Positions 34 to 10,425 of a stretch of 10,515 nucleotides of DNA are shown here, piece by piece. Source of the DNA: Pseudomonadota bacterium. Its GTDB lineage: Bacteria; Pseudomonadota; Gammaproteobacteria; Xanthomonadales; Rhodanobacteraceae. The DNA is taken from positions 1 to 10,515 of the forward strand of contig JAFEEK010000005.1 of the NCBI GenBank assembly GCA_018241165.1, read 5' to 3'. The first letter of the stretch is position 1, and every line of letters starts with the position of its first letter. The position numbers and the translations under genes were made by a program. The notes under the pieces were generated by a model, which ran no database searches, was not told the DNA's origin, and was given only the letters and a program-made list of their open reading frames with translations.

Positions 34-1119
34 ATGAAACGTAATACCTTGTTTGTCCTGATCGCCCTGGGATTGGGCGGCGTGGGCGTCGCCAATGCCC
101 AGGATGCCAGCAGCTGGTATCTGGCTGCGCGTACCGGCATGGTCGCGCCGGACAGCGCCCGCACCACCAAGAATTCGGCGTTTGCCGGTATTGGCGCCGG
201 CGTGTGGGTCAATCCGAACCTGGCCGTCGATTTCGAATACGGCATCAACAATGCGGACTTCAAGAACAATTCCCCGCGCTTTGGCCACCAGTGGGAAAGC
301 GTGCAGCTCGACGTTGCCGCGCGCTGGTTCTTCGGCGAGATCGGCTCTGGTTGGCGTCCGTACGTGATGGGCGGCGTTGGCGTGATGCGCCACAAGGCCT
401 TTTCGGGCTCCCTGCTCAGCGACGCGGGGTACACCGCTTCTGGCGGCTGGGATCCGATGGCCACTGCCGGCGTCGGCATGCAGTACAACCTGTCCGACCG
501 CGTGGCGTTCCGTGGCGAAATCGCCGGTCGCTATGACCGCGACAACAATTCGCTGAATTCCTCGTTGGCCGCGTCGCAGGGCTTCAATCGTCACAGCGGA
601 TTCACCGACGCAATGGCTACGGTTGGTCTGGTCGTCAACTTCGGTGGCGGCTCGGCTCCTGCGCCGGCACCGGCGCACGAAGAGGCTGCTCCGCCTCCGG
701 CTGCTCCGCCGGCGCGCGAAGAAGCCACTCCGCCGCCCGCAGTCGCCATCGACCTGCGCGGCGTCGAGTTCAAGTTCGACCATCCGCGCGTTGGCGAAAA
801 GCTGGTGCCGTCGTTGAAGGCGCCGACTGCCGATTCCGTGCAGATCCTGGACGAGGCTGTCGATACCCTGAAGCGCTACCCGAACGTGCATGTTTCGGTT
901 GACGGCTACACCGACTCCGTCGGTAGCGACGCCTACAACCAGAAGCTGTCCGAGCGCCGCGCCAAGGGCGTGTACGACTACCTGACCGAGCATGGCGTGG
1001 ATGCCAGTCGCCTGGATGGTCCGAAGGGCTTCGGCAAGTCCAGCCCGATCGACACCAACAAGACCTCGGCTGGCCGTCAGCGCAACCGTCGCGTCGAGTT
1101 GAAGGTGGAAAGCCAGTAA
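34..1119 (+). CDS. OmpA-family outer-membrane protein (beta-barrel plus peptidoglycan-binding domain)
   Basis: The protein has 361 residues. Residues 1-22 are a Sec signal peptide (Lys-Arg, hydrophobic core, ANA cleavage site before Gln23). Residues 25-203 alternate polar and hydrophobic residues rich in Gly and aromatics, as expected for an OmpA-type eight-stranded barrel, and close with a strand ending in VVNF. Residues 206-237 are a Pro/Ala/Glu linker. Residues 243-358 are the OmpA C-terminal domain, with the diagnostic GYTDSVGSDAYN stretch (291-302), LSERRA (305-310) and the GRQRNRRVEL end (347-356); in the family, the Asp and Arg of these motifs hold diaminopimelate of peptidoglycan. Its role would be to tether the outer membrane to the wall and possibly to form a small pore. 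It is preceded by a good ribosome binding site and followed 22 nt later by a terminator, so it is the last or only gene of its transcript. The family is sure; the exact orthologue (OmpA, OprF or another) is not. Confidence 0.95.
   Translation: MKRNTLFVLIALGLGGVGVANAQDASSWYLAARTGMVAPDSARTTKNSAFAGIGAGVWVNPNLAVDFEYGINNADFKNNSPRFGHQWESVQLDVAARWFFGEIGSGWRPYVMGGVGVMRHKAFSGSLLSDAGYTASGGWDPMATAGVGMQYNLSDRVAFRGEIAGRYDRDNNSLNSSLAASQGFNRHSGFTDAMATVGLVVNFGGGSAPAPAPAHEEAAPPPAAPPAREEATPPPAVAIDLRGVEFKFDHPRVGEKLVPSLKAPTADSVQILDEAVDTLKRYPNVHVSVDGYTDSVGSDAYNQKLSERRAKGVYDYLTEHGVDASRLDGPKGFGKSSPIDTNKTSAGRQRNRRVELKVESQ
670..741 (+). repeat. Imperfect tandem duplication in the Pro/Ala linker of the OmpA protein
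   Basis: Two 11-residue units, PAHEEAAPPPA (residues 213-223, bases 670-702) and PAREEATPPPA (residues 226-236, bases 709-741), sit head to tail with two residues between them. They differ by two amino acids and by several third-position bases, so the duplication is not recent. They form the flexible hinge between barrel and wall-binding domain. Confidence 0.7.
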
Positions 1120-1172: not shown

Positions 1173-2249
1173 TCAGCGCTTCGAGAACCGGTAGTGGGCA
1201 ACCAGCCACTCGTTGCCACCGCGATAGCCGAACAGTTCCGCGCAGGCCATCCAGAACATGCGCCAACGCTGATGCCAGATACGGGCCTGGTCGCCGTATG
1301 CCGGTTCGAGTACGCGCAGCACTTCGTCACGATTTCGATCCTGATTGGCGAGCCAGGCATTGGCGGTTTTCGCGTAGTGCGTGCCCGACAGGCGCCATTG
1401 CCGTTCGATCAGCAGATCTTTCTGGAACCACAACAGCGTATCCGCCGACGGCATCAAGCCGCCGGTGAAGAAGTGGCGCCCCATCCAGTTGGCGTCGCCA
1501 TCAGTCTCGAACGGGTACATCAGTTCGCGATGGCAGAAAATGTGCACGAACAGCTTGGCGTCGGCACGCAGCCAAGACGCGATGCGTCCAAGCAGGATTT
1601 CGTAGTTGCGCATGTGCTCGAACATCTCGATCGACACGCAGCGATCGAATCGCGCGGATGGCAGTTCCAGCCGGTTGACGTCCTGCGTGATCACTTCGAC
1701 ATTGACCAGGCCCAGCGAGCGGCAGCGCGCGAGGATGAATTCGCGTTGCGGTTTCGAGTTGGATACGGCCGTGATGCGGCTGTGCGGGTATTTCTGCGCC
1801 ATCCACAGGGTCAGCGAGCCCCAGCCGCAGCCGAGTTCCAGAATATCCTGACCGTCGGCTAGCTCGGCGCGTTCGCCGTACAGAGCCAGCATCTTGTCTT
1901 CGGCCTGGTCCAGCGTTTCGCACCCGGTTGGAAAGTAGCAGCTCGAATACTTCAGATGTTTGCCGAGGCACAATTGGAAAAATCGTGGCGGCAATTCGTA
2001 GTGCTGCGCATTGGCGGCGTCCGTGTGGGTTGCGACCGGGCCCGCGCGCAAGTCATCCAGGCAGCGTTCGAAGCGCGACCAGGCAGCGGTGGTATCTGCG
2101 GCGCGTTCCTCGCGCAGGCGCTGCGCGCAAAGGCGGCGAATGCCGGCGCGGATCATCCAGTCCGGCAGCAGGCCGCGTTCGGCCAGACCGATCAGTCCGC
2201 GCGGTGCGTCGAAGGCAGCATTTGCGGTGCCGCTGGCGGTATCGTTCAT
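1173..2249 (-). CDS. Cfa-like SAM-dependent methyltransferase (second of two in the operon)
   Basis: The protein has 358 residues and belongs to the cyclopropane-fatty-acyl-phospholipid synthase superfamily, but to a branch distinct from the other copy in this operon. An N-terminal helical region (1-80) precedes the HYELPPRFF substrate-side motif (83-91), YSSCYF (101-106) and SAM motif I, ILELGCGWGSL (136-146). Next come SIEMFEHM (206-213), with the Glu and His found in canonical enzymes, and FVHIFCH (234-240). By alignment from memory with E. coli Cfa, Glu211, His236 and Tyr292 match bicarbonate ligands, while the Cys is displaced by one position (Cys104). It presumably methylates a double bond in an acyl chain or lipid intermediate at the inner membrane; this branch also resembles plant-type N-methyltransferases, so the substrate is uncertain. 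The start is the ATG of an ATGA overlap with the preceding DUF1295 gene; the frame is open further upstream, but only as a shadow of that gene. A terminator follows 4 nt after the stop. Confidence 0.88.
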   Translation of the reverse strand: MNDTASGTANAAFDAPRGLIGLAERGLLPDWMIRAGIRRLCAQRLREERAADTTAAWSRFERCLDDLRAGPVATHTDAANAQHYELPPRFFQLCLGKHLKYSSCYFPTGCETLDQAEDKMLALYGERAELADGQDILELGCGWGSLTLWMAQKYPHSRITAVSNSKPQREFILARCRSLGLVNVEVITQDVNRLELPSARFDRCVSIEMFEHMRNYEILLGRIASWLRADAKLFVHIFCHRELMYPFETDGDANWMGRHFFTGGLMPSADTLLWFQKDLLIERQWRLSGTHYAKTANAWLANQDRNRDEVLRVLEPAYGDQARIWHQRWRMFWMACAELFGYRGGNEWLVAHYRFSKR

Positions 2250-3031
2250 GGGGAATTCTTCGGAAGCCAGGGAATGAACATCGATGTCGTGTGCTGATAG
2301 TCGCGGTAATCGTCGCCGCGCGAACGCAACGCCTGCGCTTCCGCGAACGGAATGCCGGTGATCCACACCAGCGAAGCGAGCATCAGCACCGGCCCGATCA
2401 GGCTGAGCAGCCAGGCCGGAAACGGTGCACCGACGGCCAGGAAAACGTAGGTGAACCAGTGCAACCATTCGAAGAAATAGTTCGGATGACGGGAGTACCG
2501 CCACAGGCCCGCACGACAGGTTTTTTCGCGGTTTTGCGGATTCTTCCGGAACATCGACAACTGCGCATCGGCGATCGATTCGCCGGAGAGGCTGACGATC
2601 CAGATGGCAAGGCCGAGTCCGCACCACACTGAAAACGTCTCGCGCGGATTCTCGGCCACGGCCGCGAACGGCAGCGAGAACAGCGCGATCAGCAAGGCCT
2701 GGCCCATGAAAAATGCGAAAAATTTGCGCTGATCGCCATGCCAGTATTCACGTAGATAGCGATAACGGCCGTCTTCGTTTTCGTTCAGCACGCGGGCGAG
2801 GATGTGCAGGCACAGGCGGAATCCCCACAGGCTGCCGAGCAGCGCGACGGCAAGGCGCGAGGCAAGACCGCCGCTGCCGACCGCGGCGTAGAACAGCGCG
2901 CTGGCACCCATGCCTGCCGCCCAGATCGCATCGACGATACCGGCGTTGCGGGTGCGACGCTGGATCAGCCAGCCGACAAGCATCGCCGCGCTCGCCACGA
3001 TCCACACGTAAAGGATGTTGATCGGACTCAT
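2246..3031 (-). CDS. DUF1295 family integral membrane protein (steroid 5-alpha-reductase-like fold)
   Basis: The protein has 261 residues, mostly hydrophobic, with about six or seven membrane helices (for example 6-23, 35-52, 60-80, 105-125, 134-150, 188-204 and 206-226). The family signature GLWRYSRHPNYFFEW (175-189) is present, as are GRYRYLR (88-94) and a C-terminal DYRDYQ near residue 241. In relatives with the steroid-5-alpha-reductase or isoprenylcysteine-methyltransferase fold, this Arg-His-Pro-Asn region binds the NADPH or SAM cofactor. I therefore infer a membrane-embedded reductase or transferase acting on a lipid chain; no reaction is established for DUF1295. The start chosen is the ATG of an ATGA overlap with the preceding gene, with GGAG 7 nt upstream (3039-3042). 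An earlier start at 3064 would add 11 residues of upstream shadow and is less likely. Confidence 0.88.
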   Translation of the reverse strand: MSPINILYVWIVASAAMLVGWLIQRRTRNAGIVDAIWAAGMGASALFYAAVGSGGLASRLAVALLGSLWGFRLCLHILARVLNENEDGRYRYLREYWHGDQRKFFAFFMGQALLIALFSLPFAAVAENPRETFSVWCGLGLAIWIVSLSGESIADAQLSMFRKNPQNREKTCRAGLWRYSRHPNYFFEWLHWFTYVFLAVGAPFPAWLLSLIGPVLMLASLVWITGIPFAEAQALRSRGDDYRDYQHTTSMFIPWLPKNSP

Positions 3032-3579
3032 CGCAATGCTCCACGCAAGACCGGCCGCGCGCAATCCTCACGCACCAGATAGCGCGCCAGTGCAAACAGG
3101 GCCGGGGCCAGAACCGCCCACGCGATCGCCAGTACGCCAAGTGCGATCGCCGGTTGTGCGGCAAAGGACAGCGCGTTCCAGCCGCGTGCCGCGGCCCAAT
3201 AGGCCAGTGGCGCGCCGATGGCGCCGAGTATCGCGGCCAGCAGAAGATGCGATTTCAGATACGCCAGCGAATGGTTGAGCGTCAGCGCGAAGCTCATCCA
3301 CAGCGCCACGATCCAGATCGGCGCGAAGTGCGGCGAAGGCACCGGCGAGGAGTACGCGAACATGCCGCCATGCACGCAGGCGGTGTCGATGGCGAATCCG
3401 GCGATTGCAGCGCACGCCATCAATTGGAGATCGGCACGACGTTCGTTGGAAACCCAAAGCTGCCATGCAGCGAACACGGCGAGCATCAAGGGCCCGGCCC
3501 ACCACCAGCCGCGCGCGGCGCCCGCGACTGCGGCGAACCAGGTCGCCTGATAAAAGACGATATTGATGAAGTTGTTCAC
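3028..3579 (-). CDS. DUF2878 family integral membrane protein
   Basis: The protein has 183 residues and is almost entirely hydrophobic, with about five or six predicted membrane helices. Features typical of the family are the N-terminal FYQATWFAAV (9-18), a central segment with Asp65 and His70, and WMSFALTLNHSLAYL (94-108). The start is a GTG inside a GTGA overlap with the preceding Cfa-like gene; there is no in-frame ATG nearby and no strong ribosome binding site, so translation probably depends on ribosomes finishing the upstream gene. The stop overlaps the ATG of the DUF1295 gene in the same way. DUF2878 genes are commonly found beside DUF1365 and Cfa-like genes, which points to a role in lipid modification, perhaps as a membrane platform or subunit. 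The biochemical function is unknown. Confidence 0.85.
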   Translation of the reverse strand: MNNFINIVFYQATWFAAVAGAARGWWWAGPLMLAVFAAWQLWVSNERRADLQLMACAAIAGFAIDTACVHGGMFAYSSPVPSPHFAPIWIVALWMSFALTLNHSLAYLKSHLLLAAILGAIGAPLAYWAAARGWNALSFAAQPAIALGVLAIAWAVLAPALFALARYLVREDCARPVLRGALR

Positions 3580-4868
3580 GCCGCGTCGTCCGCGTCCGGG
3601 ACGAATTGCGCACGTCGGCAGTCGGGCTTTACCAGAAGCATCTGCACGTCGCCGGTGGAACGTTCGCGGAAACCGGCTTCGCAGTAGGCGAGGTAAAAAT
3701 CCCACATGCGCATGAAACGCTCTTCGTAACCGAGCGCACGCACTTGCATTGCGTGCGCATGGAAACGCGCGCGCCAGGCCGCGAGCGTGCACGCATAACT
3801 CGGGCCGATGTCTTCCAGATTGAACAGTTTCAGATCGCTCGTGCGCGCGGCGGCGTCGAGCATCGCGCTGACGGATGGAATGAAACTGCCGGGAAAGATG
3901 TAGCGCTTGATGAAATCGACCGCACGCAGCGCCTGCGCGTAGCGGTGATCTTCGATCGTGATCGCCTGTATCAGCGCCATACCGCCTGGTTTGAGCAATG
4001 CGCCGACCTTGCTGAAGTAGGAATCCAGGTATTGATGGCCAATCGCTTCGATCATCTCGATGGAAACGAGCTTGTCGTAACGTCCGCCCAGATCCCGGTA
4101 GTCGCGCAGCAGCACCTCGACGCGGTCGGCCAGTCCCGCCGCTTGCACGCGCGCGCGTGCCAGATCGTGCTGCTCGCGCGAGATCGTCGTGGTGGTGACA
4201 TGACAGCCGTAATGGCGCGCGGCGTGGATGGCGAAACCGCCCCAACCGGATCCGATTTCGACGACGCGGTCGTTCGCGCCCAGTTCGAGTTTTGCGCAGA
4301 TGCGCTCGAGCTTGCGCGTGGATGCGGCCTCCAGCGTGTCGTCGGCGCGCGCATACAACGCCGACGAATACATCAGGTTGTCGTCGAGGAACAGGCGGAA
4401 GAATTCGTTGCCGAGATCGTAGTGCGCAGCGATGTTGCGGCGACTGCCGCTGCGCGTATTGCGCTTGAGCGCATGCCAGGCGCGCATCGTCCAGGTGCCG
4501 ATGCGGGCCAGTCCGGTTTCCATCGCATCGAGCAGATCGCGGTTGCGAACCAGCATGCGCATCAGCGCGACTGCATCGTCGCAAGTCCATGCGGCATCCA
4601 TCCAGGCTTCGCCGGCGCCGACGCTGCCGTTGCCGGCGACCTGCCGGTAGAACCCCGCATCGTGCACGTGCACCGTTGCGTGCAGGGTCTGAGCCGGATC
4701 GTCGCACGGCGTGCCAAGCGTGGTGTCGCCGAGCGCGTCGACGATACGCAGCCGACACCCGCGCAACATGCTCATCTGTTTGTGCAGGCGTGCGCGCAAG
4801 ACGCGGTCCAGTGCGCTCCAGGACCCGGCGGGAGCGGATTCTATGGTGCTGGCGATGTCCTGGCTCAT
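3576..4868 (-). CDS. Cyclopropane-fatty-acid-synthase-like SAM methyltransferase with altered bicarbonate site
   Basis: The protein has 430 residues, somewhat longer than E. coli Cfa (about 380). An N-terminal domain (about 1-140) would hold the lipid; AAHYDLGNEFF (147-157) and MYSSALY (166-172) line the active site; SAM motif I is VVEIGSGWGGF (202-212); then come VLLRDYRDL (252-260), SIEMIEAIGHQY (269-280), ALIQAITI (298-305) and RYIFPG (322-327). By alignment from memory with E. coli Cfa, Glu274, Ile303 and Tyr358 keep bicarbonate-binding positions, but the Cys is Ser169, the His is Gln301, and the His after the Glu is Ala275. The enzyme should still transfer a methyl group from SAM to the double bond of a phospholipid acyl chain, but may not complete ring closure as Cfa does. 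The start is the ATG of an ATGA overlap with DUF1365; the longer open frame upstream is a shadow. Family is certain, product is not. Confidence 0.92.
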   Translation of the reverse strand: MSQDIASTIESAPAGSWSALDRVLRARLHKQMSMLRGCRLRIVDALGDTTLGTPCDDPAQTLHATVHVHDAGFYRQVAGNGSVGAGEAWMDAAWTCDDAVALMRMLVRNRDLLDAMETGLARIGTWTMRAWHALKRNTRSGSRRNIAAHYDLGNEFFRLFLDDNLMYSSALYARADDTLEAASTRKLERICAKLELGANDRVVEIGSGWGGFAIHAARHYGCHVTTTTISREQHDLARARVQAAGLADRVEVLLRDYRDLGGRYDKLVSIEMIEAIGHQYLDSYFSKVGALLKPGGMALIQAITIEDHRYAQALRAVDFIKRYIFPGSFIPSVSAMLDAAARTSDLKLFNLEDIGPSYACTLAAWRARFHAHAMQVRALGYEERFMRMWDFYLAYCEAGFRERSTGDVQMLLVKPDCRRAQFVPDADDAA

Positions 4869-5644
4869 GCGTCGCTCGCTCTGGATTTCGGGTGGTCGTA
4901 CACGGGGTTGCGTCGAAGGAAGATCAACAGCGCCTGCCAGTGGATCGCGATAACGATTTTCAGGGTCATGGCCGGAAAACGCAGCAACACGCGCGCCAGA
5001 TTCGCGCCGGTCAATGGCTTTCGTTCCATTACCAGGGTGGCGTCGAATTCGCTGTGCTTGTGTGCGTCGATGACATCCATGTGCACGCGCAGGGCATCGT
5101 CCGGGGCGGTGAAGCGCCATGCGTAGTCGCGTTGCATCGGCAGGAAAGGCGAAACGTGGAAATCCTTGGCGAAATCCCAGCGCAGCGCGGCACCGTGGCG
5201 CTGTGCGTCGGCCACCGGCAGCACGTAGCTGTGGCGTTCCTTCCACGGCGTGTTGGTGATTTCGGCGACGATGGTGTCCAGCGTGACGCCGTCATCCGCA
5301 TAGCAGTAATAGAAGCTCACCGGATTGAAGCAGTGGCCGAAATAGCGCAGGTGCGTAAGCACGCGGATCGGACCTTCCGGAGTGCGCCCGGTTGCTTCGC
5401 GCACGCGCGCACGCACGGCGTCGACAAGTGGCACGGATGGATCGCCCAGATAATCGTCGCGGCGGAACTGCGCGAGATTGCGCCGGTTCACCGACCACAG
5501 CCAGCGCCCGACGAACACGCGATCGAGTTCGGCCAGGTCCAGGTACAGCATGTACATCTTGTAGCGGAACGCATGCGCATGCGGTGCATGACGGCGGTGG
5601 CGCACCCAGCCTTCGTAGATGCAACTGGACAATGGTGCGTTCAT
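4865..5644 (-). CDS. DUF1365 domain-containing protein
   Basis: The protein has 259 residues, the usual size for DUF1365. Family hallmarks in order are GWVRHRRHAPHAHAFRY (12-28), RYFGHCFNPVSFYYCY (100-115), NTPWKERHSYV (131-141) and DFHVSPFLPM (161-170). A hydrophobic stretch near 219-243 could associate with the membrane. The many conserved His, Asn and aromatic residues suggest an enzyme or a metal- or lipid-binding protein, but no activity follows from sequence alone. DUF1365 genes almost always sit between a COG2907 FAD oxidoreductase and a Cfa-like methyltransferase, as here, so all three probably act on the same acyl chain. The start is the ATG in an ATGA overlap with the FAD oxidoreductase gene, with GGGAG about 10 nt upstream. 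The stop overlaps the Cfa-like start by 4 nt. Confidence 0.92.
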   Translation of the reverse strand: MNAPLSSCIYEGWVRHRRHAPHAHAFRYKMYMLYLDLAELDRVFVGRWLWSVNRRNLAQFRRDDYLGDPSVPLVDAVRARVREATGRTPEGPIRVLTHLRYFGHCFNPVSFYYCYADDGVTLDTIVAEITNTPWKERHSYVLPVADAQRHGAALRWDFAKDFHVSPFLPMQRDYAWRFTAPDDALRVHMDVIDAHKHSEFDATLVMERKPLTGANLARVLLRFPAMTLKIVIAIHWQALLIFLRRNPVYDHPKSRASDA

Positions 5645-6885
5645 GGCCAGCGCACTCCCAGACCATTGGCGACGTCGGTCGCGCTGCGCATGCCGTCTTC
5701 GTGGAAACCCCAACCCCAATATGCACCGGCAAACCAGGTTCGATTCCTTCCCTGAATTTCCACCTTGCGCTTCTGTGCGGCGACGCTGGCCTGTGTGTAG
5801 ACCGGATGGCGATAGTGCAAGCGTCGCAGGATTTTTTCCGGCGCGATCTGCGCGGTGCGGTTGAGCGTGACCACGATGGGCTCGGGGCAGTCCAGCGCTT
5901 GCAGCAGGTTCATGCAATAGCTGACCGTGCACGCCTGCGTGTCGTCTCGCGGCACCAGCGCATTCCACGCCGCCCAGGCGCGGCGCCGGCGCGGCAGCAG
6001 GTTCGCGTCGCTGTGCAGCACGGTATCGTTGTCCTGATACGTCATTGCGCCGAGGATTTCGCGCTCGTTTGCGCTGGCGTCGCCGAGCAAGGCCAGTGCC
6101 TCGTCGCTGTGGCAGGCGAGCACGGTCTGATCGAATTGTTCGACTCCGGCCGCGCTTTGCACGGTTACGCCATCCGCTGCGCGCGTTACGCGCGTGGCCG
6201 CGCAGCCGATACGCTCTTGCACGTGCCAGTTCTTACGCAGCGCACGCACGTAGGTCTGCGAGCCGCCCTTGACCACCCGCCATTGCGGACGACCGCGCAC
6301 CTGCAACATCCGGTGGTTGGCCATGAATTGCACCAGGTATCTCGCGGGAAACTTCATGATCTGCGACGACGGCGACGACCACAACGCGCTGGCCATCGGC
6401 AGCAGATGATCGTCCGCGAAGGCATGCGAATAGCGATGTTCGTCCAGATATTCGCCGAGCGTCGGACCATCACTGCCCTCATCCAGCAGGGCCGGCGCCT
6501 CGCGGTAGAATCGCCGCAGATCGGCCAGCATGCGCCAGAAGCGCGGCGAGACGAGATTGCGTGGCTGGCAGAACAGGCCGGGCAGATTCGTGGCGTTGTA
6601 TTCCAGGCCGCTGCGCTCGTTCTTCAACGCGAAACTCATCGTGGTCGGCTGCGATGCGACGCGCAGGTCATCGAACAAGCGGTTGAGCAGCGGATAGTGC
6701 GGCGCGTTGAATACGATGAAGCCTGTGTCTACAGCGCATCGACACCCGGCGATTTCGAGGTCATGCGTGTGCGTGTGCCCGCCCAGATAGTCGTTGGCTT
6801 CGTATAGCGTTACCTCGTGCTCCCGCGACAGCAGCCATGCGCTGGCCAGTCCCGCAATGCCCGATCCCACCACTGCGATTCGCAT
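5641..6885 (-). CDS. FAD-dependent oxidoreductase, COG2907 type (amine-oxidase/desaturase fold)
   Basis: The protein has 414 residues. The N-terminal Rossmann motif VVGSGIAGLASAW (5-17) followed by Glu29 and LGGHTHTH (34-41) binds the ADP half of FAD. VDTGFIVFN (52-60) is typical of the family. The C-terminal FAD segment NRTWFAGAYWGWGFHEDG (381-398) closes the cofactor site. The fold is shared with phytoene desaturases and amine oxidases, which remove hydrogens from hydrophobic substrates; a dehydrogenase or isomerase step on a modified fatty acyl chain is the natural inference. Neighbouring database entries are often named amine oxidase or cyclopropane/cyclopropene synthesis protein, but the reaction is not fixed by sequence. 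The gene starts with the ATG of a TGATG overlap (1 nt) with the desaturase and ends in an ATGA overlap with DUF1365. The frame remains open far upstream through the desaturase and OsmC genes, which is a codon-bias shadow and not an N-terminal extension. Confidence 0.93.
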   Translation of the reverse strand: MRIAVVGSGIAGLASAWLLSREHEVTLYEANDYLGGHTHTHDLEIAGCRCAVDTGFIVFNAPHYPLLNRLFDDLRVASQPTTMSFALKNERSGLEYNATNLPGLFCQPRNLVSPRFWRMLADLRRFYREAPALLDEGSDGPTLGEYLDEHRYSHAFADDHLLPMASALWSSPSSQIMKFPARYLVQFMANHRMLQVRGRPQWRVVKGGSQTYVRALRKNWHVQERIGCAATRVTRAADGVTVQSAAGVEQFDQTVLACHSDEALALLGDASANEREILGAMTYQDNDTVLHSDANLLPRRRRAWAAWNALVPRDDTQACTVSYCMNLLQALDCPEPIVVTLNRTAQIAPEKILRRLHYRHPVYTQASVAAQKRKVEIQGRNRTWFAGAYWGWGFHEDGMRSATDVANGLGVRWP

Positions 6886-7823
6886 CAGTGCGCCCGCCGC
6901 AGTCCGGCCGGCACCGGCTTCAGGTCCCACACCAGTCCGCACGCGGCGAATGCGCGCAGCAGGTAGTACGTCAAGTCGAACTCCCACCAACGAAAACCCT
7001 GGCGCGCCGAACCCGGGAAGTGGTGATGGTTGTTGTGCCAGCCCTCGCCGAACGTGATCAGTGCCAGCAGCCAGTTGTTGCGTGAATTGTCGCGAGTGGC
7101 AAAGCGACGGGAGCCAAAGCGGTGGGCAATGGAATTGATCGTGACCGTGGCGTGGAACAGCACCACGGTGGAAATGAAGAATCCCCAGATCAGCATTTGC
7201 GCGCCGCCGGTGTGCAGGGCCGGGTGGGCAACGCCAAGCCAGCGGCCGAAGAAGTACAAGCAGACCGCCAGCAGGATCGGCATGGCAATGTCGAAGCGAT
7301 CCAGCCAGCGCAGTTCCGGATAGCGGCGCAGATCCGGAATACGTTGCCAATCCGTGCCAAATCCGCGCGCGGTCAGGAACCAGCCCATGTGGCTCCACCA
7401 AAATCCGCGCTGCACGGGCGAATGGATGTCGGCTTGCGTATCCGCATGCCGATGATGATTGCGATGGTGCGCGGCCCACCACAGCGGTCCGCGCTGCACG
7501 CACATCGCACCGATCATGGCGAACAGGAACTGCACGACGCGCGAGGTCTTGAACGCCTTGTGCGAAAAATAGCGGTGATAAAAACCGGTCAGCGCGAACA
7601 TGCGCAGTGCATACAGCGCAATGGCGACGAAGAGTGCGATCCACGAGAATCCGACCCAGACCACGCCCAGACAGGCCAGATGCATGCCGATGAACGGGAT
7701 CACCCGCAGCCAGTCGATGCACTCGGCGTCCACGCCTTCGCGAGTCGCCACGGCGTCGGTATCGAACCATTGCGCAACGGCGAATAGTGATCGGTGTTGG
7801 GAGCTGGACGATGGGCTTCGCAC
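6885..7823 (-). CDS. Membrane fatty-acid (acyl-CoA or acyl-lipid) delta-9-type desaturase
   Basis: The protein has 312 residues from the GTG at 7823. The three His boxes of the di-iron membrane desaturases are complete: HRYFSH (83-88), HHRNHHRHAD (119-128) and HNNHHHFPGSA (263-273), together with the extra NSIAHRFGSR (230-239). Hydrophobic pairs at about 43-75 and 180-225 give four membrane helices. The enzyme uses O2 and an electron donor to put a cis double bond into a saturated acyl chain, which would supply the alkene on which the Cfa-like methyltransferases act. It is first in the coupled operon. Start choice: the frame is open to a GTG at 7874 (329 residues), but that site lacks a ribosome binding site, while the GTG at 7823 has AGGAG 5 nt before it; the extra residues would be a low-complexity Ser/Pro/Thr tail. 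Confidence 0.93.
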   Translation of the reverse strand: MRSPSSSSQHRSLFAVAQWFDTDAVATREGVDAECIDWLRVIPFIGMHLACLGVVWVGFSWIALFVAIALYALRMFALTGFYHRYFSHKAFKTSRVVQFLFAMIGAMCVQRGPLWWAAHHRNHHRHADTQADIHSPVQRGFWWSHMGWFLTARGFGTDWQRIPDLRRYPELRWLDRFDIAMPILLAVCLYFFGRWLGVAHPALHTGGAQMLIWGFFISTVVLFHATVTINSIAHRFGSRRFATRDNSRNNWLLALITFGEGWHNNHHHFPGSARQGFRWWEFDLTYYLLRAFAACGLVWDLKPVPAGLRRAH

Positions 7824-7913
7824 GACGACTCCTGGCGGGGACGACGCAGTGTCGCCAGTAGTGGGTGACGGCACGGTGAAGAACCGCGGCCGGGCGGGTC
7901 GGTTGTGGCCGCC
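7824..7913. other. Leader between the OsmC and desaturase genes
   Basis: This 90-nt gap is the only non-overlapping space upstream of the lipid operon. It holds the desaturase ribosome binding site and a GC-rich imperfect inverted repeat (AACCG at 7882-7886 against CGGTT at 7900-7904) with no T-tract after it. I see neither a convincing sigma-70 promoter nor an intrinsic terminator, so read-through from OsmC is possible. Confidence 0.5.
7829..7833 (-). promoter_or_regulatory. Ribosome binding site that decides the desaturase start
   Basis: On the minus strand AGGAG is followed by 5 nt and then GTG (7823-7821), in frame with the desaturase. The only other candidate start upstream, GTG at 7874, has no such sequence before it. 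Confidence 0.65.
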
Positions 7914-8363
7914 TTACACTTTCAGCTCGACCGCGGTTTTTATCGAATTGGCGATAAAACAGGCCGCATGCGCACGTGCGTGCAGCGCGGAGTATTCCTC
8001 GGCGGTGGGTTGCTTGTCCCCGGAGAACGCCACTTTCGGCGCCAGCGTCGCCCTGACCACGACCATCTTGCCATCGGCATTCTTGCCGAGCTCGGCGACA
8101 GCATCGTCGTGATAGCTGTCGATGGCGTAGCCGCGGTTCGCCGCAACTGCGAGAAAGGTCAGCATGTGGCAGCTCGACAGCGCGGCGAGCAGCAACTCTT
8201 CCGGATTGCTGGCCGAAGCGTCGCCGCCGTAGTCGCCGGGCGCGGAGGAATTGCGCAGGGTCTGGCCGCCATCGAAACGGATGGCATGGTTCTTCGTGTA
8301 ATTGCCGCGTTCGAATGGGCCGCCGTCGCGCGACCAGTCCAGTGCGATGCGATGATCCGGCAT
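7914..8363 (-). CDS. OsmC/Ohr-family peroxide-defence protein
   Basis: The protein has 149 residues, close to the family norm of about 140. It carries the two redox cysteines of the OsmC/Ohr family: Cys65 in LSSCHMLTFL (62-71) and Cys135 in AHAACFIANSIK (131-142), with SNPEELLLAAL (52-62) leading to the first. Members reduce organic and fatty-acid hydroperoxides in the cytoplasm with thiol help. The pattern with FIANS after the second Cys fits the COG1764 subgroup more than classical Ohr, where a Pro-Phe follows. The start is the ATG at 8363 with GGGGAGG 5 nt upstream; the longer open frame into the divergent gene is a shadow. It lies 90 nt upstream of the desaturase on the same strand, so it may be co-transcribed with the lipid operon, which would fit protection of unsaturated lipids. 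That link is inference. Confidence 0.93.
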   Translation of the reverse strand: MPDHRIALDWSRDGGPFERGNYTKNHAIRFDGGQTLRNSSAPGDYGGDASASNPEELLLAALSSCHMLTFLAVAANRGYAIDSYHDDAVAELGKNADGKMVVVRATLAPKVAFSGDKQPTAEEYSALHARAHAACFIANSIKTAVELKV

Positions 8364-8398: not shown

Positions 8399-9205
8399 AT
8401 GCGGCAACGTGAGCGGATGAGGCGCAAGGGTAACCCATCGCCGTCACTGCGTCATCGCCGGGTCGCGGGTTCGGTCGAACCAGCGCCGCGGCATGGCCTG
8501 GCGCGCGTGCTGAGCAAGCTCGGCGTGTGTTCGCGCACGCAAGCACAGGCGTTGGTGCGCGCCGGGCGCGTGCGCGTTGACGGGCGCATCGTGCGCGATC
8601 CGGAAGCGCCGACGAATGCGCGGCGTGAGCGCATCAGCGTGGACGGCGCGGATATCGCCGCTGCCGAGAAAATCTACCTGATGCTGAACAAGCCACGTGG
8701 CTGTGTCACCACGGCCAGCGACGAACATGGCCGCGATACGGTGTATACCTTGTTGCAAAATGGAAAATTCCCGTGGCTGGCCCCTGTCGGCCGCCTGGAC
8801 AAGGCCAGCGAAGGCCTGCTGCTGTTCAGCAACGACAGCGCATGGGCGGCGCGATTGACCGATCCGGCCGCGCATCTGGACAAGACCTATCACGTGCAGA
8901 TCGATCGCTTGCCCGATGCCGATTTGCTCGCCCGCCTGTGTGCCGGCGTCGCTGACGATGGCGAAGTATTGTTGGCAAAATCGGTGCGCGAGCTGCGGCG
9001 TGGCGAAAAGAACGCCTGGCTCGAAATCGTGCTCGACGAAGGCCGCAACCGGCAGATCCGGCGGCTGTTGGCGGCGTTCGATATTGCCGTGCTGCGCTTG
9101 ATCCGCGTTGCGATTGGTGGTTTGGCACTCGGTGATCTGGCGAAAGGCCGGTGGCGGGTGCTGGCCGGCGTCGAGGTTGTGGCGCTGAAACTGCCCATGC
9201 CATGA
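8399..9205 (+). CDS. rRNA pseudouridine synthase, RsuA/RluB family
   Basis: The protein has 268 residues from the ATG at 8399. An N-terminal S4 RNA-binding domain covers about residues 32-85 (HGLARVLSKLGVCSRTQAQ, then RVRVDG). The catalytic domain follows, with YLMLNKPRGCVTT (93-105), the signature PVGRLDKASEGLLLFSND (129-146) containing the catalytic Asp134, KTYHVQI (162-168) and EGRNRQIRRL (214-223). It converts a specific uridine of ribosomal RNA to pseudouridine. The S4 domain argues against RluE and favours RluB, RluF or RsuA, but I cannot decide among these. Start is uncertain: ATG 8399 and ATG 8417 are both possible, neither has a clear ribosome binding site, and both lie before the S4 domain in a basic, likely disordered tail. 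The stop overlaps the next gene by 4 nt (ATGA). Confidence 0.92.
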   Translation: MRQRERMRRKGNPSPSLRHRRVAGSVEPAPRHGLARVLSKLGVCSRTQAQALVRAGRVRVDGRIVRDPEAPTNARRERISVDGADIAAAEKIYLMLNKPRGCVTTASDEHGRDTVYTLLQNGKFPWLAPVGRLDKASEGLLLFSNDSAWAARLTDPAAHLDKTYHVQIDRLPDADLLARLCAGVADDGEVLLAKSVRELRRGEKNAWLEIVLDEGRNRQIRRLLAAFDIAVLRLIRVAIGGLALGDLAKGRWRVLAGVEVVALKLPMP

Positions 9206-10425
9206 CCCGCCACGTCCGCATTGCCGACCTTCGCGGCGCCAGTCGCCTCGTCGTCGATGCGACGCTCGGCCTGGCCAGCCTGGTCGAAACCATGCATCAC
9301 AATATCCTGCGCACGCCGGGAATCCTCGGCAAGGCGACACAGCAGCCGGCGTCGGGAATTACTGGATTTGTATACAAGACCGTTCGTGGCGTCACCCGGC
9401 TGGTCGGCAGCGGAATCGATGCATTGCTGGATCGACTGGTGCCGTTGTTCGACGCTGGTGTTTCATCGCAAGAACGCGAAGCCGTGCTGGCGGCGTTGAA
9501 CGGGGTACTCGGCGATCATTTGCAGGCCGGCGCGAATCCGCTGGCGATTTCGATGCGGTTGCGCCGCGGCGGGCAGGCGCTCGACTTCAATCGCGCGGCG
9601 CTGGCAACGGCGATTCCCGCGGCGACCGGCAAGGTGTTGTTGCTCGTACACGGGCTGTGCATGAACGATCTGCAATGGCAGCGCCGGGGCCATGATCACG
9701 GCGCCGCACTGGCTGCCGATGCCGGATTCACGCCTGTGTATCTGCACTACAACACCGGTTTGCACGTTTCCAGCAACGGACGTGCGTTTGCTGCGCAGAT
9801 CGAGGCGTTGCTGCAGGCGTGGCCTGTGCGTGTGGACGAGTTGGCGATCCTTGCCCACAGCATGGGCGGGCTGGTCGCGCGCAGCGCCTGTCACTACGGC
9901 GAACTCGCGCAACATTGCTGGTTGCGGCATTTGGGCAAGCTGGTATTTCTCGGTACGCCGCATCTTGGCGCCGTGCTGGAGCGCGGCGGCAACTGGGTGG
10001 ACTTGCTGCTGGATGCCAGTCCCTACACGACCGCGTTCGCGCGCCTGGGGAAAATCCGCAGCGCCGGCATCACCGACCTGCGCCACGGCAACGTGATCGA
10101 TGAAGACTGGGAAGGTCGCGATCGTTTCGCGAATTCGCGCCGGCAACTGCGCACTGTGCCGCTGCCGGCCCACGTGAAGTGCTACGCGATCGCCGCGTCG
10201 ATCGCGAAGCGGCGCGGCAAACTCGGCGAAAGATTGCTCGGCGACGGTCTCGTCTCGATCGCCAGTGCGCTCGGCGAAGATCCGCGCGGGCGCAAAAATC
10301 TAGCGCTGCCGAAACGTCGGCAGTGGATCGGCTACGGCACGAATCACATGGATTTGCTGGATCGCAGCGAAGTGTATGCGCGGATCAGTCGCTGGTTTTC
10401 AGAATCGCAGCGACAGGCAACTTAG
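9202..10425 (+). CDS. Alpha/beta-hydrolase, probable lipase or esterase
   Basis: The protein has 407 residues. About 140 N-terminal residues without a recognised domain (no signal peptide; partly helical, with ITGFVYKTVRG at 53-63) precede an alpha/beta-hydrolase core. VLLLVHGLCMND (145-156) is the first strand and oxyanion hole; LAILAHSMGGLV (214-225) is the nucleophile elbow with Ser220 (Ala replaces the first Gly of GxSxG); VFLGTPHLGA (248-257) is typical of lipases related to PGAP1 and triacylglycerol lipases; GDGLV (347-351) offers the acid Asp348, and TNHMDLL (380-386) the catalytic His382. A complete triad is thus visible. It probably hydrolyses an ester bond in a lipid or a storage or wall ester in the cytoplasm or at the membrane; the substrate is unknown. 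The ATG sits in an ATGA overlap with the pseudouridine synthase gene, so the two are translationally coupled. Its 3' end overlaps the convergent gene by 27 nt. Confidence 0.88.
   Translation: MTRHVRIADLRGASRLVVDATLGLASLVETMHHNILRTPGILGKATQQPASGITGFVYKTVRGVTRLVGSGIDALLDRLVPLFDAGVSSQEREAVLAALNGVLGDHLQAGANPLAISMRLRRGGQALDFNRAALATAIPAATGKVLLLVHGLCMNDLQWQRRGHDHGAALAADAGFTPVYLHYNTGLHVSSNGRAFAAQIEALLQAWPVRVDELAILAHSMGGLVARSACHYGELAQHCWLRHLGKLVFLGTPHLGAVLERGGNWVDLLLDASPYTTAFARLGKIRSAGITDLRHGNVIDEDWEGRDRFANSRRQLRTVPLPAHVKCYAIAASIAKRRGKLGERLLGDGLVSIASALGEDPRGRKNLALPKRRQWIGYGTNHMDLLDRSEVYARISRWFSESQRQAT

Follow-up and report, generated by a model that had tools for sequence, protein, structure and literature searches.

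Which lipid is made by a row of seven overlapping genes that combines a fatty acid desaturase, a FAD protein, two Cfa-like methyltransferases and three proteins of the DUF1365, DUF2878 and DUF1295 families? The row lies in a window of 10,515 bases (the whole stretch of DNA analysed here) from a 2.45-Mb draft genome of 515 contigs. The preliminary description of the locus had proposed the bacterial furan fatty acid pathway as a parallel, and our analyses support it: the row holds counterparts of UfaD, UfaO, UfaM and FufM, and those of UfaD, UfaO and UfaM follow one another as in Rhodopseudomonas. We consider it probable, at roughly 0.85, that the seven genes constitute one translationally coupled operon whose product is a dimethyl furan fatty acid, built on the acyl chains of phospholipids. 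This reading is based on gene content, gene overlaps, synteny, clade membership and the predicted fold of the DUF1295 protein; from these we infer every reaction proposed for this organism, as well as which chain serves as substrate and what des, DUF2878 and DUF1295 do.

In the account of R. palustris given in PMC7380195, ufaD, ufaO and ufaM are RPA2571, RPA2570 and RPA2569, fufM is RPA0924, and the ufaD-ufaO-ufaM gene set is described as sufficient for the monomethyl furan acid. The reference genomes used here were those of Rhodopseudomonas AAP120 and B29 and R. palustris JSC-3b, taken from the best 80 of 582 relatives, rather than those of CGA009 or R. sphaeroides.

Organization of the operon

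The seven genes are read on the minus strand from position 7823 to position 1173, in the order listed, between two flanking genes of the plus strand.

9151-10425, plus strand: alpha/beta hydrolase gene with PGAP1-like domain, flanking the operon
6885..7823, minus strand: des, SCD-like fatty acid desaturase, first operon gene (GTG start; PF00487, 90.5 bits)
5641..6885, minus strand: UfaD-like FAD/NAD oxidoreductase, putative methyl-ene fatty acyl desaturase (PF01593/PF13450)
4865..5644, minus strand: UfaO-like DUF1365 protein, putative O2-dependent furan-forming step (PF07103, 285 bits)
3576..4868, minus strand: UfaM-like SAM methyltransferase, the first Cfa-like gene (CMAS, 271 bits)
3028..3579, minus strand: DUF2878 membrane protein, putative accessory (GTG start; PF11086, 143 bits)
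2246..3031, minus strand: DUF1295 membrane protein with the predicted fold of an NADPH-dependent C=C reductase (227 bits)
1173..2249, minus strand: FufM-like SAM methyltransferase, the second Cfa-like gene, predicted to add the second ring methyl (CMAS, 123 bits)
34-1119, plus strand: OmpA/OprF-type porin gene, flanking the operon

From des to the last gene, the ORF coordinates give overlaps between neighbours of 1, 4, 4, 4, 4 and 4 nt, which bears out the six overlaps of 1 or 4 nt described earlier. The overlaps are not due to chance: the complete set of seven genes is present in 23 relative loci, and at every one of the six junctions between 18 and 23 of these loci show either an overlap or a spacer no longer than 20 nt. 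The number of families lacking an assigned reaction, initially given as three of the seven, is two (DUF2878 and DUF1295), because DUF1365 is the UfaO family. No Rfam family was found at gathering score, nor a sigma-70-like promoter between positions 900 and 8700.

The UfaD- and UfaO-like genes

Similarity to UfaD, UfaO, UfaM and FufM, which had been suggested as a check, was found for all four proteins, at 41-42%, 34-38%, 40-41% and 47-50% identity, respectively, in local alignments (tblastn for the first three) with the Rhodopseudomonas counterparts. The UfaD-like protein aligns over residues 1-414 (317-324 bits) with the product of the FAD gene beside DUF1365 in the three reference genomes, and the DUF1365 gene, which adjoins the ufaD-like gene, matches the gene in the ufaO position. 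DUF1365 has a single match in the window's draft genome, as in each reference genome. Fold searches gave no confident relative of the UfaO-like protein.

The furan parallel first put forward needs a more exact mapping of genes to steps: by analogy with the known systems, the second double bond of the furan route falls to the UfaD-like FAD protein rather than to the FA_desaturase gene, des being an extra.

The low identity of the DUF1365 protein leaves some room for an operon that ends at a methyl-branched or methyl-diene acid, with no furan and with DUF1365 doing something else. UfaM by itself is reported to yield a methyl-branched acid (PMC7380195, PMC12089945), and Halomonas UfaM in E. coli gave a new peak assigned as 11-methyl-12-octadecenoate (PMC12089945), a result that also counts in favour of the furan reading. 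We regard this outcome as improbable, given the coupling of UfaD-, UfaO- and FufM-like genes to the UfaM-like gene, the single DUF1365 match in the genome, and the preference described for FufM, which acted on furan acid and did not significantly methylate 18:1(11Z) (PMC7380195).

Two methyltransferases outside the Cfa rows

A methyltransferase tree (IQ-TREE) of 42 rows, namely 20 FufM, 18 UfaM and 4 Cfa, placed the two enzymes of the window in different well-supported clades, each with Rhodopseudomonas proteins, which backs the furan parallel. The UfaM-like protein falls inside a UfaM clade of 18 rows (fork 100/98), and the four Cfa rows, including E. coli Cfa and the second Rhodopseudomonas Cfa, stand outside this clade; over the whole alignment the UfaM-like protein is only 35.6-36.5% identical to the methylase neighbouring DUF1365 in Rhodopseudomonas. 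The FufM-like protein falls in a FufM clade of 20 rows (fork 100/100) and is 46.0-47.5% identical over the whole alignment to the three Rhodopseudomonas proteins taken as FufM. Regarding that assignment, AAP120 and B29 each have three CMAS matches above 130 bits: a Cfa-like gene next to DUF1365, a further Cfa and a coclaurine-N-methyltransferase-like gene. JSC-3b has two, the Cfa-like gene next to DUF1365 and the coclaurine-N-methyltransferase-like gene, and further matches in all three are at most 45 bits each. Since this inventory fits the available account of R. palustris (PMC7380195), the coclaurine-N-methyltransferase-like protein was taken as FufM on that fit, not via CGA009 itself.

The bicarbonate ligands of E. 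coli Cfa are reported to be Glu239, His266 and Tyr317 (PMC11387697). At position 266, Gln is present in 18/18 UfaM rows and His in 4/4 Cfa rows, as well as in the FufM rows, so that this residue separates UfaM from Cfa among the 22 rows compared; at position 139 of E. coli Cfa, Ser occupies 17/18 UfaM rows and Cys the Cfa rows. Considered as a Cfa, the UfaM-like protein of the window retains Glu239 and Tyr317 and has Gln in place of His266. Loss of this ligand could plausibly explain why UfaM would yield a methyl and an alkene instead of a ring. The FufM-like protein, considered likewise, retains all three ligands, yet belongs to the FufM clade. Its closest relatives in the PDB are plant coclaurine N-methyltransferases (E 3e-75), Cfa being farther (E 9e-24); Arabidopsis proteins have been named after the furan pathway, LIME1 being FUFM1 (PMC10940516).

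That both enzymes match the CMAS family would also suit a stress-lipid cluster unrelated to furans, in which the two make ordinary cyclopropane acids. Their separation from the Cfa rows in the tree, the missing bicarbonate histidine of the UfaM-like protein and the nearness of the FufM-like protein to coclaurine N-methyltransferases in the PDB make this the least probable of the explanations considered, and very unlikely. In genome G000, a further CMAS match (contig C472:4585-4719, L003; 42.7 bits) ends at the contig end; it is perhaps that genome's ordinary Cfa.

Synteny and co-occurrence of DUF2878 and DUF1295

The closest named relative of the window's DUF2878 protein comes from an assembly of Rudaea sp. 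(83% identical; Rhodanobacteraceae, Gammaproteobacteria). A search of 59 other relatives found DUF2878 in 36. Gene content was determined by tblastn in 38 loci fetched from DUF2878-carrying relatives, and the full one-strand order des-ufaD-ufaO-ufaM-DUF2878-DUF1295-fufM was recovered in 23. Near-complete versions lack DUF1295 only (four loci) or fufM only (one), or have DUF1295 on the other strand (one); two loci run into a contig end before reaching des, two start at DUF1365, and in two DUF2878 is oriented against the other genes. Two loci are second copies that consist of DUF2878-DUF1295 alone, and one locus has DUF2878-fufM alone.

DUF1295 also accompanies fufM. Among the best 80 of 582 relatives, ranked by likeness to alphaproteobacterial FufM, it lies directly upstream of fufM on the same strand in 62 loci and elsewhere in the locus in one, and is absent from the stretch in 17; it is present in 17/17 further loci from one alphaproteobacterial family. 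No DUF2878 match of at least 60 bits was found in these 97 FufM loci.

A sample of 249 genomes of the phylum, in which DUF2878 was required to exceed its cut-off and DUF1295 to be full-length at more than 100 bits, contained 16 carriers of FufM, 73 of DUF1365, 36 of DUF2878 and 22 of full-length DUF1295. FufM occurred with DUF1365 in 15/16 genomes (4.7 expected) and with DUF1295 in 14/16 (1.4 expected), DUF2878 with DUF1365 in 35/36 (10.6 expected), and DUF1295 with DUF1365 in 19/22 (6.4 expected), with p values of 1e-8 to 4e-21 that ignore shared ancestry. The exceptions are one of the 16 FufM genomes without DUF1365 and two without full DUF1295, and, among the 22 genomes with full DUF1295, three without DUF1365 and eight without FufM. 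Within 6 kb of DUF1365, DUF2878 is found in 26/36 genomes and DUF1295 in 11/22, and FufM lies at most 2 kb from DUF1295 in 11/16. DUF2878 and FufM coincide in only six of the 249 genomes (p 0.016), an overlap small enough to suggest that DUF2878 belongs with the core rather than with the second methylation. Both families appear to be membrane accessories of the furan pathway, by a tie that is near-constant for DUF2878 and holds mostly for DUF1295.

A predicted reductase fold for DUF1295

The DUF1295 protein, most likely an NADPH-dependent C=C reductase by its predicted fold, was compared with steroid 5-alpha-reductase-like membrane reductases (PbSRD5A and C14-sterol reductase), with which it may share that fold; Foldseek itself returned no DUF1295 match at E 0.001 or better. 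The NADPH contacts of PbSRD5A in TM5-6 (N159, D163, R170, N192, Y193 and E196) were read by eye from an alignment of 48 DUF1295 rows: the D, N192 and Y occur in 48/48, the E in 40/48 and the R in 31/48, and the first N is replaced by E or G. The region of the catalytic Q-E-Y motif of these reductases gave no sequence alignment with DUF1295.

In R. sphaeroides, FufM alone is reported to have given the dimethyl acid (PMC7380195), so that DUF1295 seems unneeded for the second methylation. The same study made a deletion of R. palustris RPA0923, which is probably the DUF1295 gene upstream of fufM; the available main text gives no result for it. As a tentative and rather doubtful proposal, DUF1295 might be the NADPH ene reductase of the furan pathway, acting on the conjugated ene-dione (dioxoene) that arises from oxidation of the furan acid, with the chain in Rhodanobacteraceae supplied by the operon's own desaturase. 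If true, conversion of the dioxoene to a saturated 1,4-diketone would be a detoxification, and possible re-closure to the furan would make the acid a recyclable oxidant trap. The DUF1295 gene that precedes fufM would thereby have an activity open to testing.

The desaturase gene, its upstream region and the stress setting

The best solved relatives of the des product are the acyl-CoA desaturases 4ymk (E 6e-26) and 4zyo; its His boxes read HRYFSH, HRNHH and HNNHH, and its score of 91 bits falls short of the 400 bits required for the DesA equivalog. Upstream of the GTG at 7823 stands AGGAG, and in three same-genus loci AGGAG (two) or AGGAA (one). Two further features lie upstream.

7865..7880, minus strand: direct repeat TTCAC-N7-TCAC, candidate operator upstream of des
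7914..8363, minus strand: OsmC/Ohr-like peroxiredoxin, possible eighth gene (PF02566, 60 bits; ATG start by comparison with relatives)

The repeat occurs in 9/29 des upstream regions against 0.12 expected, its spacing having been chosen after some of the regions had been seen. The sigmaE-type promoter form in Rhodobacter is TGATC-N16-20-TAAG; this one form was found in 0/29 loci within 300 bp upstream of des. The osmC-like gene, 90 nt upstream of des, lies near the cluster in 10/38 relative loci and fits an oxidative-stress setting. Between ufaD and DUF1295-fufM (20 of the 97 FufM loci, 35 of 42 ORFs scanned) we found nine ChrR cupins and six sigma-70 factors, which agrees with the place of the furan genes in the core singlet-oxygen regulon (PMC6852236). 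The SAK1-dependent singlet-oxygen genes of Chlamydomonas are described as including DUF1365, DUF1295 and two Cfa-type genes (PMC4067076), which agrees with the co-occurrence seen here, as does the placing of DUF2878 after FAD-DUF1365-cfa in Aeromonas (PMC10012899). At locus L084 (595-8394, minus strand), a MerR/B12-binding regulator, fufM, DUF2878, DUF1295, DUF6134, a lipocalin and ufaD-ufaO-ufaM stand in a row, possibly a light-regulated furan cluster.

The presence of des within the gene row of 29/38 related loci bears on a variant of our explanation, in which the substrate is an iso-branched or des-derived chain rather than cis-vaccenate and the furan acid differs in structure from those reported. 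Five strains of Luteibacter (Rhodanobacteraceae) contain 20-29% iso-C17:1w9c, so that UfaM may act on something other than cis-vaccenate; a strong FabA match (more than 200 bits) occurs in just 15/30 relatives, and the operon carriers G001 and G014 (99-100% complete) are without one. The window's genome, however, encodes a FabA ortholog that shares 63% identity with the E. coli protein, which makes the vaccenate route likely there, and desaturase regiochemistry is unreadable from sequence. We hold this variant to be possible, with the odds against it.

Proposed pathway

In the preferred reading, a dimethyl furan acid would be formed as follows. A cis double bond would come from the SCD-like desaturase, acting aerobically, or from the FabA route, and the UfaM-like methyltransferase would place a methyl on it; the UfaD-like flavoprotein would then give a conjugated methyl-diene, the UfaO-like DUF1365 protein would introduce oxygen derived from O2 and close the furan, and the FufM-like methyltransferase would add the second ring methyl. 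Since all steps to a dimethyl furan acid appear to be encoded in a single coupled operon, the pathway could be tested with one clone. Beyond the four known furan enzymes the operon adds des, DUF2878 and DUF1295, the latter two being families without assigned function that synteny and co-occurrence now link to furan fatty acids.

Comparison with known furan systems

Two clusters share the core of the window as they have been described. Halomonas sp. YLGW01, gammaproteobacterial like the window, has a consecutive core of ufaM, ufaD and ufaO with an assigned UfaM product, the available account making no mention of FufM, DUF1295, DUF2878 or des (PMC12089945). In Aeromonas salmonicida, FAD-DUF1365-cfa followed by DUF2878 reproduces the UfaD/UfaO/UfaM-like order of the window; SDR and SnoaL genes lie upstream, and the available description does not name des, DUF1295 or FufM (PMC10012899). 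By published description, UfaD (RSP1091) of R. sphaeroides adjoins UfaO (RSP1090) in the RSP1091-1087 operon, as in the window, whereas ufaM (RSP2144) lies elsewhere and the three other genes of that operon are dispensable for furan acid.

The Rhodopseudomonas system of ufaD-ufaO-ufaM and fufM shares the FAD-DUF1365-Cfa-like order with the window in AAP120, B29 and JSC-3b, and these three genomes, together with Bradyrhizobium BTAi1, also share a DUF1295 gene directly upstream of the FufM-like gene. Unlike the window, the Rhodopseudomonas loci examined gave no des or DUF2878 match, and their ufa and fufM blocks lie apart, whereas in the window all seven genes are united in one coupled operon.
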